Source: Flavobacterium micromati (GTDB taxonomy: Bacteria; Bacteroidota; Bacteroidia; Flavobacteriales; Flavobacteriaceae). Taken from it: a stretch of 64,000 nucleotides of DNA. A program made the position numbers and the translations under genes. This document shows positions 1 to 45,600 of this stretch, one piece after another. The number at the start of each line of letters is the position of its first letter. The stretch's first letter is position 1. The notes under the pieces were generated by a model. That model made no database searches. It had not been told where the DNA came from and saw only the letters and a list, made by a program, of their open reading frames with translations. The stretch spans positions 62,001-126,000 of the forward strand of contig NZ_FQWF01000007.1 in NCBI RefSeq assembly GCF_900129585.1. The letters run 5' to 3'.

Positions 1-155
1 ATTCCTGGCATCGAAGCAATTTCTACTTGATAATTTTCGCCCTCCGCGATAAACATAGGAAACATAAAATCGCTTGGACTTAATGTGGTTTCACGAACTA
101 AACTTCTTATCGATTCGTTTACTCTTAATCTTCTACCTCTTTGTAATGGGAACAT
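1..155 (-). CDS. hemB: Delta-aminolevulinic acid dehydratase, N-terminal part (cut by window edge)
   Basis: Only the first ~51 codons are in the window. They begin with MFPLQRGRRLRVNESIRS and continue through a TLSPSDFMFPMFI-like segment, which is the characteristic N-terminus of porphobilinogen synthase. The enzyme condenses two 5-aminolevulinate molecules to porphobilinogen in the cytoplasm. The ATG at 153-155 is the natural start. It reads in the same direction as hemA, hemC, hemD, hemE and hemF to its right, so it looks like the distal member of the same heme cluster, now separated from hemF by the transposase and hairpin arrays. The identification rests on a short stretch but the match to family memory is strong. 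Confidence 0.85.
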   Translation of the reverse strand, partial: MFPLQRGRRLRVNESIRSLVRETTLSPSDFMFPMFIAEGENYQVEIASMPG

Positions 156-176
156 AATGATTTATGATTTAATTTA

Positions 177-326
177 AGCTCCAGCGGAGCGTCATATTTA
201 TAGCTCCAGCGGAGCGTCATATTTATAGCTCCAGCGGAGCGTCATATTTATAGCTCCAGCGGAGCGTCATATTTATAGCTCCAGCGGAGCGGCATATTTA
301 TAGCTCCAGCGGAGCGTCATATTTAT
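177..326. repeat. Left array: six 25-bp hairpin repeats
   Basis: Six head-to-tail units start at 177, 202, 227, 252, 277 and 302 with an exact 25-bp period. Each contains the palindrome GCTCC-AGC-GGAGC (5-bp stem, 3-nt loop) followed by GTC and an AT-rich spacer. The fifth unit has GGC for GTC. The array stops 1 bp short of the stop codon of the transposase gene. Read on the minus strand, the spacer and trinucleotide match the array on the other side of that gene. Confidence 0.95.
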
Positions 327-327
327 C

Positions 328-780
328 TCAATCAAAAATAAATTCAGTTTTATAATCTACATCGAATGCTTCTAAAAACGCAACATATTCCTCTTTGAAT
401 GTCTTTGCTTTGTGATGTTCTTCCTGATTTTGAATATATCTAATCACATTAGTTAAATTTGAATGACTGTATGAAAATGCTCCAAAACCAGTTTGCCATT
501 CGAATTTACCATTTACCCAAGCTTTTTCATTGATGAAACGAGAAGAATTTGCTTTTATATCTCTTACCAAATCAGACAATGCTTTGTTGGGTTTTATTCC
601 AATTAAAATATGAATATGATCTGACACTCCGTTAATGGCAATTAATTTCTGCCCTTCATTGGTAACTATTCCTGTGATATATTTAGACAATTCGTCTTTC
701 CATGTGTTGGAAATTAAATTTTGTCTGCCTTTGACAGCAAAAACAACTTGAACATACAATTGAGAATAGGTATTTGCCAT
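328..780 (-). CDS. IS200-like Y1 (REP-associated, RAYT-type) transposase
   Basis: About 150 residues, the normal length for single-domain Y1 HUH transposases of the IS200/RAYT class. These nick single-stranded DNA at hairpins. The HUH motif is H57-I-H59 in SDHIHILIG (numbering from the upstream TTG frame), and the nucleophile is probably Y117 in IRYIQNQEEHH. I chose ATG at 778-780 (MANTYSQLYV) rather than the TTG at 784-786. The gene is intact. No IS200-type ends are visible; instead it is bracketed by inverted arrays of two different hairpin repeats with the same 25-bp period, the arrangement expected of a domesticated RAYT with its REP sequences. Its mobility and substrate are inferred, not shown. 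Confidence 0.85.
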   Translation of the reverse strand: MANTYSQLYVQVVFAVKGRQNLISNTWKDELSKYITGIVTNEGQKLIAINGVSDHIHILIGIKPNKALSDLVRDIKANSSRFINEKAWVNGKFEWQTGFGAFSYSHSNLTNVIRYIQNQEEHHKAKTFKEEYVAFLEAFDVDYKTEFIFD

Positions 781-879
781 GATCAAAAATTAATTATAAC
801 TATGTAAAACCAATGTGGATTAAAATTCAAGAATTTGGGATAATAAAATTATATAAATATTTTGCGCTATTAATATTTC

Positions 880-992
880 GCACCGATGGTGCTAAAAATA
901 TGTCGCACCGATAGTGCTAAAAATATGTCGCACCGATGGTGCTATAAATATGTCGCACCGATGGTGCTATAAATATGTCGCACCGATGGTGC
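880..992. repeat. Right array: five 25-bp hairpin repeats
   Basis: Five units start at 880, 905, 930, 955 and 980, again with a 25-bp period. Each palindrome is GCACC-GAT-GGTGC, with one loop/stem variant (ATAGTGC) in the second. Four are preceded by TGTC and separated by TATAAATA or TAAAAATA. The first is preceded by TTC. The spacer is the reverse complement of the left-array spacer apart from one base (GTC here, GAC there), so the two arrays are inverted around the transposase. Their stems are entirely different yet equally well paired. Confidence 0.95.
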
Positions 993-1030: not shown

Positions 1031-1939
1031 TTACAGAGTTATCCAATCAATGGGTTTTTCCAATACTTTTACTAATTTTTCTTCTTCGCTTCCAGCTTCT
1101 GGATGATGGTCGTAAACCCACTGCACATGTGGTGGTAAACTCATCAGAATACTCTCTATTCTGCCATTGGTTTTTAAACCAAACAACGTGCCTTTGTCGT
1201 GCACCAAATTGAACTCTACATAACGACCACGGCGAATTTCTTGCCATGTTTTTTGCTCTGGTGTGTATGGCAATTCCTTTCTTCTCCCTACAATAGGAAC
1301 ATACGCCTCTAGGAAACTATTCCCCACTTCGCTAACAAAGCTAAACCAATTTTCCATTGAAATATCCTCAGTCGCTTTGCAATAATCAAAGAACAATCCG
1401 CCAATCCCTCTCGCTTCATTACGATGCAAATTCCAAAAATAGGTATCACATTGCTTTTTATATTTTGGATAAAACTCTAAATTGTGTTTATCGCAAGCAG
1501 TTTTACAGGTTTGATGAAAGTGAATCGCATCCTCTTCAAACAAATAATACGGTGTCAAATCTTGACCTCCACCAAACCATTGCTGAATTATACTACCATT
1601 ATCATCGTACATTTCGAAATAGCGCCAATTGGCATGAACCGTTGGCACCATTGGGTTTTTTGGATGCATAACCAAACTCAATCCGCAGGCAAAAAAATCA
1701 GCCTCGCCTACATTAAACATTTTTTGCATGGCTTCAGGCAGCTTCCCGTGAACCGCAGAAATATTAACACCGCCTTTTTCAAAAACTTTTCCGTTTTCAA
1801 TTACACGAGTTCGTCCACCGCCACCTTCTGGACGTTCCCAAAGATCTTCTTTAAATTTGGCTTGACCATCAACCGCCTCGAGTCCTGCCACGATTTGGTC
1901 TTGTAGGTTTTGTATGTAGGTGTAGAATTGTTCTTTCAT
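1031..1939 (-). CDS. hemF: Oxygen-dependent coproporphyrinogen III oxidase
   Basis: 302 residues, the usual HemF length. It converts coproporphyrinogen III to protoporphyrinogen IX by oxidative decarboxylation of two propionates, using O2. Family segments are clear: the PEGGGGRTRVIENG stretch near residues 37-50, NPMVPTVHANWRYFE near 94-108, WFGGGQDLTPYY near 121-132, and the C-terminal RRGRYVEFNLVHDKGT. The gene follows hemE by 76 bp on the minus strand. Depending on oxygen suggests an aerobic organism. The start MKEQFYTYIQ fits the family. The gene's 3' end faces the right hairpin array, which begins about 40 bp beyond its stop. Confidence 0.97.
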   Translation of the reverse strand: MKEQFYTYIQNLQDQIVAGLEAVDGQAKFKEDLWERPEGGGGRTRVIENGKVFEKGGVNISAVHGKLPEAMQKMFNVGEADFFACGLSLVMHPKNPMVPTVHANWRYFEMYDDNGSIIQQWFGGGQDLTPYYLFEEDAIHFHQTCKTACDKHNLEFYPKYKKQCDTYFWNLHRNEARGIGGLFFDYCKATEDISMENWFSFVSEVGNSFLEAYVPIVGRRKELPYTPEQKTWQEIRRGRYVEFNLVHDKGTLFGLKTNGRIESILMSLPPHVQWVYDHHPEAGSEEEKLVKVLEKPIDWITL

Positions 1940-13863: not shown

Positions 13864-13940
13864 GATTGTTGATTAACGATTTCTGATTTACGAAATAGTA
13901 AGCATACTCCTCAAAGTTTCCAAATACTGATTGTCAGTTT

Positions 13941-16357
13941 ACTTTGTCATTCCGGAGGTAAAATCTGTAATTACTTTGTCATTCCGTAGGAATCCCTACA
14001 ATAGTATCATTTTTCTTTAGTAGCAAGTGATGAGACGCTTCCAGCGTGACAAACTACACTGGGAAAGTTGCATAAAACTAGATGTTCGGATCAAATTACT
14101 CCTTTACTTTGTCATTCCGGAGGAATCCCTACAATAATATGATTTTGATTTAATAACAACTGATGAGACGCTTCCAGCGTGACAAACTAAACTGGTAAAG
14201 TTGCATAAAACTAGATGTTCGGATCAAATTACTCCTTTACTTTGTCATTCCGAAGGAATCCCTACAATAATATGATTTTACTTTGGTAGCATGGATGAGA
14301 CGCTTCCAGCGTGACAAACTAAACTGGTAAAGTTGAATTGAACTAGACGTTCGGATCAAATTACTCCTTTACTTTGTCATTCCGAAGGAATCCCTGCAAT
14401 AACATGTTTTTGTTTTAGAACAAGTGATGAGACGCTTCCAGCGTGACAAACGAAACTTGAAAAATAGGTAAGCAAATTATCCAACTACTTTGTCATTCCG
14501 GAGGAATCCCTGCAATAACATGATTGTTTTGGAACAAGTGATGAGACGCTTCCAGCGTGACAAACTAAACTGGGAAAACTGGGTGATAAAATCAGTAGTT
14601 ACTTTGTCATTCCGGAGGAATCCCTACAATAACATGATTTTGAGATTACATTAAAAACTACTCAAAATGAGAATTCAAGAATTTCATTTCTGGATTAAAT
14701 TCTTTAATTAGATTTAATTTCAATTCTCTCCGCATGTCTTTGATCTCCTTTTCTCTAGCAATGGCAAGCTGAATCCATCCGAAATGTTCATAATAAATCA
14801 AAAACTCGACATTGTAACGAGCAGTAAAACTACTAGCATTAATGTGGTTCTTATGCTCATTTAGCCTGCGTTTTAAATTATTGGTAACACTAGTATATAA
14901 AACAGTTCTGTTTTTATTTGTTGTCATATAAACATAAAAGTTGTAGATTCCTTCTGTGTATTCAATCATTTTTTTAAGATAAAACTAGTAAATATTTTGA
15001 GAAAGGCAAGTGGTTTATCTTAATTTGTCATTCCATAGGAATCCCTACAATAGTCTGATTATTTCTTAGTAACACGCGATGAGACGCTTCCAGCGTGACA
15101 AATTGGAGTGGAAAAGGTGGGTAATAAAACTATCTATATAATTTGTCATTCCGTAGGAATCCCTACAATAATATGATTTTGTTTTAGAACAAGTGATGAG
15201 ACGCTTCCAGCGTGACAAACTAAACTGGTAAAGTTGCATAAAACTAGATGTTCGGATCAAATTACTCCTTTACTTTGTCATTCCGGAGGAATCCCTACAA
15301 TAATATGATTTTACTTTGGTAGCATAGATGAGACGCTTCCAGCGTGACAAACTAAACTGGTAAAGTTGCATAAAACTAGATGTTCGGATCAAATTACTCC
15401 TTTACTTTGTCATTCCGGAGGAATCCCTACAATAATATGATTTTACTTTGGTAGCATAGATGAGACGCTTCCAGCGTGACAAACTAAACTGGTAAAGTTG
15501 CATAAAACTAGATGTTCGGATCAAATTACTCCTTTACTTTGTCATTCCGGAGGAATCCCTACAATAATATGATTTTACTTTGGTATCACGGATGAGACGC
15601 TTCCAGCGTGACAAACTAAACTGGGAAAGTTGAAGTGAATTAGACGTTTGAGACCATTTAATCCTTCCCTCTCTAGACAAATTATTCCTTTACTTTGTCA
15701 TTCCGGAGGAATCCCTACAATAATATGATTTTACTTTGGTAGCATAGATGAGACGCTTCCAGCGTGACAAACTAAACTGGGAAAGTTGAAGTGAACTAGA
15801 CGTTTGAGACCATTTAATCCTTCCCTCTCTAGACAAATTATTCCTTTACTTTGTCATTCCGAAGGAATCACTGTTATAATAAGATTTTGATTTAATAACA
15901 ACTGATGAGACGCTTCCAGCGTGACAAACTAAACCGGGAAACTAAACTAGGAAAACTGGAATAAGAAAACCAAGTCGTAAAACTACCAACTAACTTTGTC
16001 ATTCCGTAGGAATCCCTATAATAACATGATTTTATTTTAGAACAAACGATGAGACGCTTCCAGTGTGACAAACTAAACTGGGAAAGTTGCATAAAACTAG
16101 ATGTTGGGATCAAATTACTCCTTTACTTTGTCATTCCGGAGGAATCCCTATAATAACATGATTTTATTTTAGAACAAACGATGAGACGCTTCCAGCGTGA
16201 CAAACTAAACTGGTAAAGTTGAATTGAACTAGACGTTTGAGACCATTTAATCCTTCCCTCTCTAGACAAATTATTCCTTCACTTTGTCATTCCGGAGGAA
16301 TCCCTACAACAACATGATTGTTTTAGAACAAGTGGTGAGACGCTTCCAGCGTGACAA
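13941..16357. repeat. 2.4-kb array of ~15 BIME-like hairpin-pair elements
   Basis: About fifteen copies of a ~75-80-bp element, each bounded by TTTGTCA and TGACAAA. Each holds two inward-facing hairpins: ATTCC-GGA-GGAAT (loop also GTA, GAA or ATA) just after the first GTC, and ACGCT-TCC-AGCGT just before the last GAC. A clean example is 13975-14053. Elements are joined by ~54-bp linkers that are themselves repeated (with GGATCAAATTACTCC or the alternative TCCTTCCCTCTCTAG), giving a ~133-bp period. The copy near 16050 has AGTGT for AGCGT, keeping the stem by a G-U pair. A GIY-YIG gene interrupts the array at 14658-14969. Frames of 64-73 codons within the array are not genes. Confidence 0.95.
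14658..14969 (-). CDS. Small GIY-YIG-superfamily protein with altered motif
   Basis: 103 residues, the length of the stand-alone UvrC-N-terminal-like GIY-YIG nucleases. The GIY part is YVY (residues 12-14). The YIG part has become YTS (25-27 in LYTSVTNN). The helix with the catalytic Arg is intact (NLKRRLNEHK), as is the later REKEIKD Glu region, and NPE near the end is kept. Most relatives have YIGVTNNL here, so activity may be reduced. The gene sits inside the 2.4-kb hairpin array: half an element lies 10 bp beyond its stop and full elements resume ~55 bp upstream of its start. Confidence 0.85.
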   Translation of the reverse strand: MIEYTEGIYNFYVYMTTNKNRTVLYTSVTNNLKRRLNEHKNHINASSFTARYNVEFLIYYEHFGWIQLAIAREKEIKDMRRELKLNLIKEFNPEMKFLNSHFE

Positions 16358-16402
16358 ACTGCATCACTGAACACTAAAAACTGAGCACTAGAACACTAAA
16401 CA

Positions 16403-42686: not shown

Positions 42687-45600
42687 TTAATTTTCTACAC
42701 GTATTATTGTCATTTTTCCATTATACGTTTTACTACCTCGAGATTCTAAAATTTGAGTAGCTTGCGTTAAATTGTCAAACTTATCGACATAAATGAAATA
42801 ATTAGTTGATTTCACATCGTAAAAGAAATTAATATTTTGCTCTCCAGCTGCTACTGTTTTAGTTACAAAAGTGTCTCTTTTTGAAACCTCTTGATGAACA
42901 GCGAGTACTATATAATAACCTGTTTCAACGTTTTTAATATTTTTAATAATTTGCATGTTTGCTAGTTCCTTTCCGTAATCAAAATCCTCTGCTTTAAGTT
43001 TTATAGTACTTACGGCAGTTGTTGCTTTGATGCGATTCAAAGTTTCTTGATCCGTTTTATACCTACTATCTTCATTTTCAAAATTCGCGCGTTTTATTCT
43101 ACGTTTCTTTTCTATTTCTGTAGCTTCATTTATTTGCACCAGTGCTGTTATTAATCTACTGTTAGATTGTTCTGCTATTTTTTGGTTTGCTTTCAATTCA
43201 TTAATTGTTTGTAAATAGCTTAGCGTTAATGCATCATTTTTATTTGCCGTTTTCTTTAAACGTTCCTCATATAAAGTATTTATCGAGCTTAACAACTGAT
43301 TTTGTTTTTTATTCGTTAAGTCAATTTCTGATTTCAATGATTCTAGTGCAGCATTTTCAGCAGAGACGCTCTTAAACTCTTTAGGCGGACTTGCAATTCC
43401 TCTATCATTTAAATCATTTTCATTTTTTAAATCTTTCAGTTCCTTATCTTTTTGTGCAACTTTTTCATTCAACTCACTTAATAATTGTTGTTGTGTTTCA
43501 CGTGCGGCAGCTAAACTCAATGCGATATTATCCATCGATTTTGCGTTATCATCCTTCACTCTTGCATCAGCAATTAGTTTTGCAGCGTCGGCATCCGCTT
43601 TTGCTTTAGCATCTGCAGCTAGTTTTGCAGCGTCGGCATCCGATTTTGCTTTAGCATCTGCAGCTAGTTTTGCAGCGTTGGCATCCGCTTTTGCTTTAGC
43701 ATCTGCAGCTAGTTTTGCAGCGTCGGCATCCGCTTTTGCTTTAGCATCGGCGGCTAATTTTGCAGCGTCGGCATCAGCTTTTGCTTTAGCATCAGCAATT
43801 AGTTTTGCAGCGTCGGCATCAGCTTTTGCTTTAGCATCAGCAATTAGTTTTGCAGCGTCGGAATCCGCTTTTGCTTTACTAGCGGCATCAGCAGCTAGTT
43901 TTGCAGCGTCGGAATCCGCTTTTGCTCTTGCATCAGCAATTAGTTTTGCAGCGTCGGCATCCGCTTTTGCTTTAGTAGCGGCATCAGCAGCTAGTTTTGC
44001 GGCATCAGCATTCGCTTTTGCTCTTGCATCAGCAATTAGTTTTGCAGCGTCGGCATCCGCTTTTGCTTTAGTAGCGGCATCAGCAGCTAGTTTTGCGGCA
44101 TCAGCATTCGATTTTGCTTTTGCATCGGCGGCTAATTTTGCAGCGTCGGCATCCGCTTTTGCTTTAGCATCAGCAATTAGTTTTGCAGCGTCGGCATCCG
44201 CTTTTGCTTTAGTAGCGGCATCAGCAGCTAGTTTTGCGGCATCAGCATTCGCTTTTGCTTTAGCATCGGCGGCTAATTTTGCAGCGTCGGCATCCGCTTT
44301 TGCTTTAGCATCTGCAGCTAGTTTTGCAGCATCAGCATTCGCTTTTGCTTTAGCATCAGCAATTAGTTTTGCAGCGTCGGCATCCGCTTTTGCTCTGACA
44401 TCGGCAGCTAGTTTTGCAGCATCAGCATCCGCTTTTGCTCTGGCATCAGCAGCAAGTTTTGCGGCATCAGCATTCGATTTTGCTTTAGCATCGGCGGCTA
44501 ATTTTGCAGCGTCGGCATCCGCTTTTGCTTTAGTAGCGGCATCAGCAGCTAGTTTTGCGGCATCAGCATTCGATTTTGCTTTAGCATCGGAGGCTAATTT
44601 TGCAGCGTCAGCATCCGCTTTTGCTCTGGCATCGGCAGCTAGTTTTGCAGCGTCAGCATTCGCTTTTGCTTTAGCATCAGCAATTAGTTTTGCAGCGTCA
44701 GCATTCGCTTTTGCTTTAGCAGCAGCATCAGCTTTTGCTTTAGCATCAGCAGCTAATTTTGCTTTTGCAACAGCATCTGCTTTTATCTTAGCCTCGTCTG
44801 GTATCGCTTTTTGCTGCTGTGGAACAACTGGTTTCAGTTTTAAGTCAGCAGCAATCTTAGCTTTCGCAGCGGCATCGGCAAGAAATTTTTCTCTTTTTAA
44901 TCTATTTTCCGCTAATAAGGCTTTTGCTTTAGCTTCATTATCTAATTTGATTTGTTCGTTAGCATCAGCTGTGGCTTTTGCTTTTGCGGCAGCATCAGCG
45001 AATAATTTTTCTCTTTTTAATCTATTTTCCGCTAATAAGGCTTTTGCTTTTGCGTCTCTAAGTTCTTTATCTTTTTGAATAGATGGGTCAACAGTGGTTA
45101 CTGCGTTTGCTGTTTTTTTAGTATCGATCTTTCTGGATTCGATAGCAGGTATAATGGAACCTTCGTCTTCTTCATCATCGTTATATTTACCAACGAATTT
45201 GTATGCTAGAACAATTTCATGTGACGGTCCTAATTGCGTAAAACTACCTATTGCCCTTTCATAATTATATTCTACTGCAATCTTAGAAGTCAAATTAAGT
45301 CCCAATCCTGCCGAAATTCCGTGGAATGTATTATAACCAGCCTGAGCCCAAATCCCTTTTGGAATAGCCAACATCATTAATCCTGATATCACGGTTTGCT
45401 CTTTTTTACTCTCCGCTCTTACTAATCCTGAAAATTTACTTCTGTCAAAAAAACCATTGTTATCTATAAAGCCCGTGTACATCAAATGAGCTTGAATACT
45501 GCGCTGTGGATCATCTGGTACTAACTGAGATGACTGAACATTGTACAGAACTGCATTATTTACGGCTAAACCAAAATCAAAAAATGCATTTCCATAATTA

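Follow-up and report, generated by a model that had tools for sequence, protein, structure and literature searches.

A Y1 (HUH) transposase gene of Flavobacterium micromati and the short hairpin units arrayed on either side of it probably (we put this at about 0.72) constitute a RAYT/REPIN-like pair of a type not characterised before, in which a protein of TnpA-Y1 subclass 1.2 would use the units as its single-strand substrate. This reading draws on the association of the units with the gene, their orientation, the fixed spacing between tag and stem, the covariation of the stem arms, the dispersed copies found in relatives, the absence of tagged units from the gene-less sites examined and the HUH fold of the modelled protein. 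The locus lies at the start of a 64,000-nucleotide stretch of contig NZ_FQWF01000007.1 (positions 62,001 to 126,000), the whole of which is called here the window.

Two inverted arrays flank a Y1 transposase gene

A preliminary description of this DNA had claimed two inverted arrays with a 25-bp period, two different stems and one spacer, and direct reading of the sequence, a repeat search and TRF all confirmed it (Table 1). The left array was placed by TRF at 172-326 (period 25, 6.2 copies, 97%) and the right one at 866-993 (period 25, 5.1 copies, 94%), with the Y1 gene between them, and in the repeat search the left and right arms were 80% complementary over 128 nt. Going outward from the gene, every unit consists of a 12-nt tag followed by a 13-nt hairpin with a 5-bp stem and a 3-nt loop, and CTAT recurs every 25 bp because the final C of each hairpin precedes TAT. 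In the direction from tag to hairpin the left spacer is TATAAATATGAC, with one unit ending in GCC and the innermost starting with GATAAAT, and the right spacer is TATAAATATGTC or TAAAAATATGTC, the innermost right unit having TATTAATATTTC. The only mismatched stem, that of the right core 905-917, deviates at a single position of its right arm (GCACC-GAT-AGTGC). Both strands of each array, folded as single-stranded DNA, surpassed dinucleotide shuffles (z -3.1 to -7.1); in the minimum-energy folds the arms of adjacent units were often paired with each other instead of forming each 5-3-5 hairpin, which the identity of the copies permits.

Table 1. Features of the Y1 locus and its neighbours, in window coordinates.
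Feature	Position	Strand	Remarks
Start of hemB (delta-aminolevulinic acid dehydratase)	1..155	-	left neighbour; extends beyond the window edge
Downstream (left) array	178..327	-	six units (TATAAATATGAC)[GCTCC gct GGAGC], period 25; innermost tag abuts the stop codon
Left hairpin cores GCTCC-AGC-GGAGC	178-190 (outermost), 203-215, 228-240, 253-265, 278-290, 303-315 (innermost)	-	
Y1 (HUH) transposase gene	328..780	-	150 aa; ATG at 780; stop abuts the first left unit
Upstream (right) array	867..992	+	five units (TATAAATATGTC)[GCACC gat GGTGC], period 25; one mismatched stem
Right hairpin cores GCACC-GAT-GGTGC	880-892 (innermost), 905-917, 930-942, 955-967, 980-992 (outermost)	+	
hemF (coproporphyrinogen III oxidase)	1031..1939	-	right neighbour; hemF-hemB is the site compared between species

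The protein belongs to TnpA-Y1 subclass 1.2

The protein encoded between the arrays matched Y1_Tnp (PF01797, E 8.4e-27) and passed the NCBIfam IS200/IS605 model (70.4 against a cut-off of 55); with 27.3 bits against a cut-off of 80 it failed the RAYT model NF047646. It carries the motifs DHIH, WQ and YIQNQEEHH (Y---Q--HH). Subclass 1.2 of TnpA-Y1 was defined by Y---Q--HH, DH[IV]H and WQ (Quentin et al. 2018, PMC6006769), so the window protein is a member by protein motif. The same source describes the subclass as low-copy and mostly from Cyanobacteria and Bacteroidetes, and its table gives REP as "no". An AlphaFold2 model of the protein (pLDDT 85.7) has an HUH fold, matching those of the ISDra2 and IS608 transposases (Z 14.7 and 14.2) and of TnpAREP 4er8 (Z 11.3). 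Three distant genes of this kind are present in the genome, the other two being 31 and 33% identical to that of the window, and near-identical copies of the window gene were not found in it.

Longer hairpins, with 8-bp stems and 4-nt loops (e.g. CCCACGGT tgaa ACCGTGGG), were observed near the two other subclass 1.2 genes of the genome (L002, 1969-3121, and L003), which suggests that unit types differ between branches.

Hairpin units accompany most homologous genes

A search of 60 genomes detected a homologue in 24, that of F. micromati included. When one genome was scanned for each species, at least 583 relatives came to light; the best 80 were fetched and, together with 29 loci from the other searches, made up a set of 109 loci. 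These best 80 relatives are mostly Bacteroidota; among them are also MAGs labelled Verrucomicrobia, Anaerolineales, Poribacteria and others, and tagged units were likewise seen at several of the loci so labelled.

Hairpins with a stem of at least 5 bp and a loop of 3 nt, no more than 150 nt from the gene, were scored at 102 of the 109 loci, the flank being too short at the other seven. They occurred on both sides of the gene at 57 loci, on one side at 32 and on neither at 13, which leaves 89/102 with a hairpin on at least one side; dinucleotide shuffles gave a hairpin in 6-7% per side and on both sides in 0.4%. Distal windows of the same loci had one in 170 of 1543 cases (11%), above the shuffles. 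With loops of 3 or 4 nt allowed, both sides were occupied at 67/102 loci and neither at 4/102, against 1.5% with both sides in the shuffles. Hairpin units therefore stand near most of the subclass 1.2 members examined, contrary to the published REP "no", a contradiction that concerns the description of the subclass and leaves membership by motif as it is.

Relatives had been expected in the preliminary description to carry arrays along with the gene. Most of them carry the gene without 25-bp arrays, but the unit itself is common, usually present twice per side about 50 nt apart.

The tag lies at a fixed distance from a variable stem

Across these loci the unit is made up of a tag and, immediately after it, a hairpin with a 5-bp stem and a 3-nt loop, and near the gene the tags point outward on both sides. 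The recurrent plan is a proximal unit some 5-45 nt from the start or stop codon, followed about 50 nt farther out by a distal one, whose tag (consensus CTAYAAAtATgtC) opens with CTAY, 13 nt ahead of the stem. This spacing was examined by scoring CTAY sites in the first 170 nt irrespective of pairing; some loci, including the window with its arrays, contribute several sites. At offset 13, with a 3-nt loop, arms paired at 5/5 positions followed in 102 of 476 cases, against 0-6 at each of the offsets 4-12 and 14-23; with a 4-nt loop there were 18 paired cases at offset 13 and at most 3 at any other offset. For CTAY on the inward strand, a paired hairpin at offset 13 was found in 14/162. Selection on the tag only (CTAY-N8-C) gave 139 candidates, 68 of them fully paired (from 47 loci), when 8.6 would be expected with the right arms re-dealt; these 68 units comprise 16 stem types, and their commonest loop is TAC (29/68). 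The claim of the preliminary description that the stem changed on both strands next to a conserved spacer has support in relatives in so far as the tag-to-stem spacing is fixed while stems vary on both arms.

Proximal and distal units differ in their tags. When hairpins were chosen by distance only, CTAY stood at -13 in 5 of the 52 starting 13-40 nt out and in 71 of the 109 starting at 41-95 nt; proximal units mostly lack CTAY and keep the AAA-A-GTC part of the tag. The foot of the units reads xGTC, xGAC and similar, and GT[AG]G was not seen there. Mutual information within the tag singled out one strong pair of positions, -6/-4 (z 18), which is probably a difference between clades (ACAG vs ATAT) and not a guide-target rule.

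As to orientation, tagged units within 140 nt of the gene pointed outward in 159 cases and inward in 9. Out to 420 nt there were 213 outward and 67 inward units and 243 untagged hairpins. Over the 211 flank sides followed to that distance, 78 had no tagged unit, an inward unit came first on 19, and a full tetrad (two units followed by two inverted units) stood beside the gene on only 8; such tetrads are thus not the rule next to the gene.

Tags and stems are equally alike within a locus

The preliminary description had further proposed recognition through the spacer and the hairpin shape, not through the stem sequence. The data support this proposal only in part, since the likeness of stems within a locus equals that of tags and the inner stem positions are nearly fixed. 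Comparing the upstream and downstream distal units of the same locus (33 loci), tag identity was 0.79, versus 0.62 between loci, and stem identity was also 0.79, versus 0.67 between loci, the within-locus excess having a permutation p of 2e-4 for both (5000 permutations). Both also follow protein identity, with a Mantel rho of 0.37 for the tag and 0.30 for the stem (both p 5e-4); the idea that the tag tracks the protein and the stem does not was discarded on account of these similar values. Since tags and stems are alike to the same degree within a locus, recognition by the tag alone is not favoured. Moreover, the inner stem positions are almost invariant (CC/GG).

An origin of the two stems by divergence inside this locus from one array, as originally envisaged, did not survive comparison with sister species. 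At the same site (L050, L079 = L060, L082) these have single units, with GCACC upstream and GCTCC or ACCCC downstream; the two stems of the window therefore predate its arrays, and each side's array was probably amplified separately.

Gene-less loci examined at two syntenic sites lack tagged units

The region after hemF was compared in 30 Flavobacterium loci, the best from 60 genomes with hemF. Tagged units were present at all six loci with the Y1 gene and at none of the 24 without it, two of the latter having untagged hairpins. Where hemB was in reach of gene-less loci (n=16), the hemF-hemB gap measured 33-124 bp in 14 and about 1.1 kb in two; with the gene it measured 682-986 bp (4 loci). 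A second home of the gene, common to Flavobacterium and Chryseobacterium loci, lies between fadB-like (3-hydroxyacyl-CoA dehydrogenase/enoyl-CoA hydratase) and fadA-like (thiolase) genes. At this site none of the 30 best loci from 61 Flavobacterium genomes, all of them gene-less, had tagged units; G005 and G025, which carry the gene there, fall outside those 30. At the 13 homologues found between fadB-like and fadA-like genes, one side or both carry units. In two clades, one of them made up of Flavobacterium and Chryseobacterium, the gene sits at one and the same chromosomal site in different species. The units, which recur at homologues, mostly point outward from the gene and are missing at two gene-less syntenic sites, hence belong with the Y1 gene, as the preliminary description had claimed.

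The presence or absence of a gene-bearing segment between hemF and hemB would also be expected if the whole 0.8-kb segment were an ordinary IS200/IS605 transposon and the two arrays its subterminal ends. Elements such as IS608 and ISDra2 share the fold (Z 14.7) and have hairpins near both gene ends, and the protein scores above the cut-off of the corresponding NCBIfam model. In IS200/IS605 elements, the guides of both ends lie on one strand; near the genes studied here the tags are inverted, with the 159 to 9 excess of outward units given above. The guide is just 5' of the hairpin at each end of such elements (PMC6006769). The F. micromati genome has three distant genes (31-33% identity) in place of near-identical copies, and the chromosomal site is stable across species in two clades. 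We consider an ordinary IS200/IS605 element improbable.

Gene-less copies are dispersed in relatives

In its own genome (3.69 Mb, 40 contigs) the unit was confined to the window. The pattern AAATATGWCGCNCCNNNGGNGC with up to 2 mismatches had 11 matches, none of them outside the window arrays (control, 0), and the looser CTATAAATATGWCNNNCC had 9 matches with 0-1 mismatch, all at the arrays; at two mismatches it gave 15 (2 at the arrays), which is background (control, 19). No dispersed copies of the array unit were thus found in this genome, which differs in this from some relatives.

Among 199 Flavobacterium genomes scanned with the pattern CTAYAAAYANNNCNNYCCNNNGGR, 47 had matches, up to 52 per genome, with 2 control matches overall. 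The gene (profile E <= 1e-20) was present in 86; both occurred in 37 genomes, the pattern only in 10, the gene only in 49 and neither in 103 (Fisher p 2e-8), an association that is partly built in, since units adjacent to the gene count as copies (all those of G000 and G173 are such), and that shared descent inflates. Gene-bearing genomes accounted for 456 matches and gene-less ones for 25. Of the 31 genomes with at least 5 matches, 30 bear the gene, and one gene-less genome has 10. Free occurrence of arrays without the gene, raised in the preliminary description as evidence against the pairing, therefore has a partial answer: matches to this narrow unit pattern do occur in gene-less genomes, in 10/113 as against 37/86 gene-bearing ones. 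A still different pattern, GTCNNYCCTACGGR (GTC with a TAC loop), was dropped as too narrow, with matches in 14/60 genomes, none in G000 and control matches in many genomes; its match on contig C9 of G004 (L181) is not a hairpin unit.

In nine genomes whose matching places were listed (in part for G214), 10 of 88 places are no more than 1.5 kb away from a listed gene, and the rest lie elsewhere. Nine of the ten copies fetched from G214 align as tetrads, and six further gene-less places showed tetrads (G022, G023 and G012), the opposite order (G005), three units pointing one way (G053) and one clear unit (G040). The site of one G214 copy was also examined in 19 relatives, over the 450 nt that follow the matched flank; 18 of them carry no tagged hairpin there, and the remaining one has a single hairpin that passes the tag score and is unlike the units.

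Dispersed inverted copies of this kind, located away from the gene, weigh against regarding the hairpins as RNA elements unrelated to DNA cutting, i.e. as terminators or as regulators of translation that act on the transposase mRNA or on hemF or hemB. Such a role would suit the position of the arrays in the gaps of the same-strand row hemF, Y1, hemB, and genes of REP-type and IS200 transposases can be regulated by RNA hairpins (PMC3733652). By eye, however, no T-run follows the stems, and the tags lie on opposite strands on the two sides, so that a single RNA would carry them in opposite senses. An RNA role of this sort appears unlikely.

Tandem arrays are a rare amplified state

Within the 109 loci, a distance of exactly 25 nt between successive tags occurred in seven cases, of which five belong to the window and two to L102, and a distance of 47-54 nt in fifteen. 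TRF detected rows with a period of 22-28 at nine loci, and those built of hairpin units, besides the window, were L102, L016 and the two-copy L148. At L102 a 25-bp array of about three good units pointing outward lies 204-282 nt upstream, and degenerate 25-bp units pointing to the gene lie 97-285 nt downstream; 25-bp arrays are therefore not unique to the window. Beside the homologue at L016 there is a 26-bp array on one side (833-1248, 16 copies) with the tags toward the gene, in which the stems vary on both arms and 13/17 units are paired at the variable position. The search for 25-bp hairpin arrays in this genome and in relatives, proposed in the preliminary description, accordingly succeeded in relatives, clearly at L102 and with the 26-bp period at L016, and brought no further unit in the F. 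micromati genome. The 25-bp arrays are a rare amplified state, the usual end being two units about 50 nt apart.

Other repeats look like further states of one process: a tandem pair of units with a 26-bp spacing in G173, at the same site as in the window, degenerate tandem units in G070, and tag-only tandem repeats of 12-14 bp in G025. In G070 the end of hemF (L053) also carries an 82-bp duplication that takes in the hemF end; one end of the duplication falls at the edge of a unit tag, as expected from cutting there, in a single case indistinguishable from chance.

That the arrays are plain slippage repeats containing a hairpin by chance is very unlikely: the perfect 25-bp period, the near-identical copies and the G025 repeats, which mark the tag region as prone to tandem change, agree with slippage, which would account for the copy number and not for the unit, whereas the arrays combine different stems with one tag, are inverted about the gene and have counterparts with other stems and the same 13-nt offset at homologues; slippage may still have multiplied the copies.

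Repeats of other kinds were also observed. The hemF genes of G025 and G079 (L166, L168) have in-frame Ser/Thr-rich inserts with short repeats unrelated to the array unit, and positions 43564-44727 of the window hold a long tandem repeat of period 45 with 25 copies.

Relation to known systems

A Y1 protein with cognate hairpins is a known kind of system. The RAYT/TnpAREP proteins with their REP/REPIN sequences (REPtron; E. coli, Stenotrophomonas) resemble the present locus in having a Y1 HUH gene flanked by palindromes in opposite orientation and, in some genomes, dispersed gene-less inverted copies; these reach up to 52 pattern matches in one relative, none having been found in the F. micromati genome. 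The CT cleavage sites of the TnpAREPs tested (PMC8266576) resemble the CTAY found here. RAYTs (class 2) have the motif Y---NP where the window protein, which failed the RAYT model, has Y---Q--HH. Their palindromes have a GT[AG]G foot, absent from the units described here, in which CTAY stands 13 nt from the stem and the ends are usually double units.

Apart from DHIH, WQ and Y---Q--HH, the locus shares with TnpA-Y1 subclass 1.2 a protein of about 150 aa, a low copy number per genome with copies unlike one another and occurrence in Bacteroidota; it departs from the "no" for REP in the table of PMC6006769 in the hairpins that stand on both sides at 57/102 loci. No report of repeats tied to this subclass was found in open-licence full texts, which is not proof of absence, and the open-licence literature searched likewise showed neither the pairing of subclass 1.2 with such units nor the geometry of the tag nor ends made of double units.

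The CGTC-tagged REPs are described as lacking a dedicated transposase (PMC3733652). In some of our loci a TGTC-like foot adjoins a stem starting with AT, e.g. tgtc[ATCCC tac GGGAT], as in those REPs; their stems of 8-9 bp, loops of 4-5 nt and short tail differ from the 5 bp and 3 nt of the present units (PMC3733652), and a link between the two is conjectural.

Elsewhere in the window, at 13930-16360, 16 copies of TTTGTC[ATTCC NNN GGAAT] were observed, mostly paired with inverted [ACGCT tcc AGCGT]GACAAA, with the tags outside. They are mostly 114-156 bp apart and flank a GIY-YIG nuclease ORF (14658-14969, - strand). Genome-wide, TTTGTC units gave 25 matches in two clusters only (13930-16360 and contig C21), and they are like CGTC-type REPs.

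A possible mechanism and its meaning

On the RAYT/REPIN-like reading, we infer that the protein binds, cuts and moves the units. A protein dimer would bind the hairpins on single-stranded DNA, such as that of the lagging strand, and the tyrosine of the protein would cleave at or beside CTAY, after which the ends would be rejoined; rejoining could move tetrads and swap or multiply units. The position of the cut is suggested by analogy with the TnpAREP enzymes, which cut single-stranded DNA next to a tagged hairpin, at CT and in one enzyme also at CA (PMC8266576), so that the present protein, binding its units single-stranded, would cut at or near CTAY. In the window, units would have been multiplied head to tail at each end, the last C of one hairpin doubling as the C of the next CTAT and so giving the period of 25; this copying may have been done by the enzyme or by replication slippage.

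We lean, with less assurance than for the locus itself, towards seeing the subclass 1.2 Y1 proteins as the enzymes that serve one more system of single-strand hairpins alongside IS200/IS605 and the GTAG-RAYTs, with double-unit ends, CTAY placed 13 nt from a 5-3-5 hairpin, inverted tetrads as mobile minis and arrays that were locally amplified more than once. A large and widely spread Y1 group, published as repeat-less, thereby gains a concrete candidate DNA substrate with a fixed geometry. The variation found in nature (several tag clades, and 16 stem types in 68 units) constitutes a panel for studying the choice of hairpin and cut site, and the tetrads that lack the gene are candidates for mini mobile elements in Flavobacterium.
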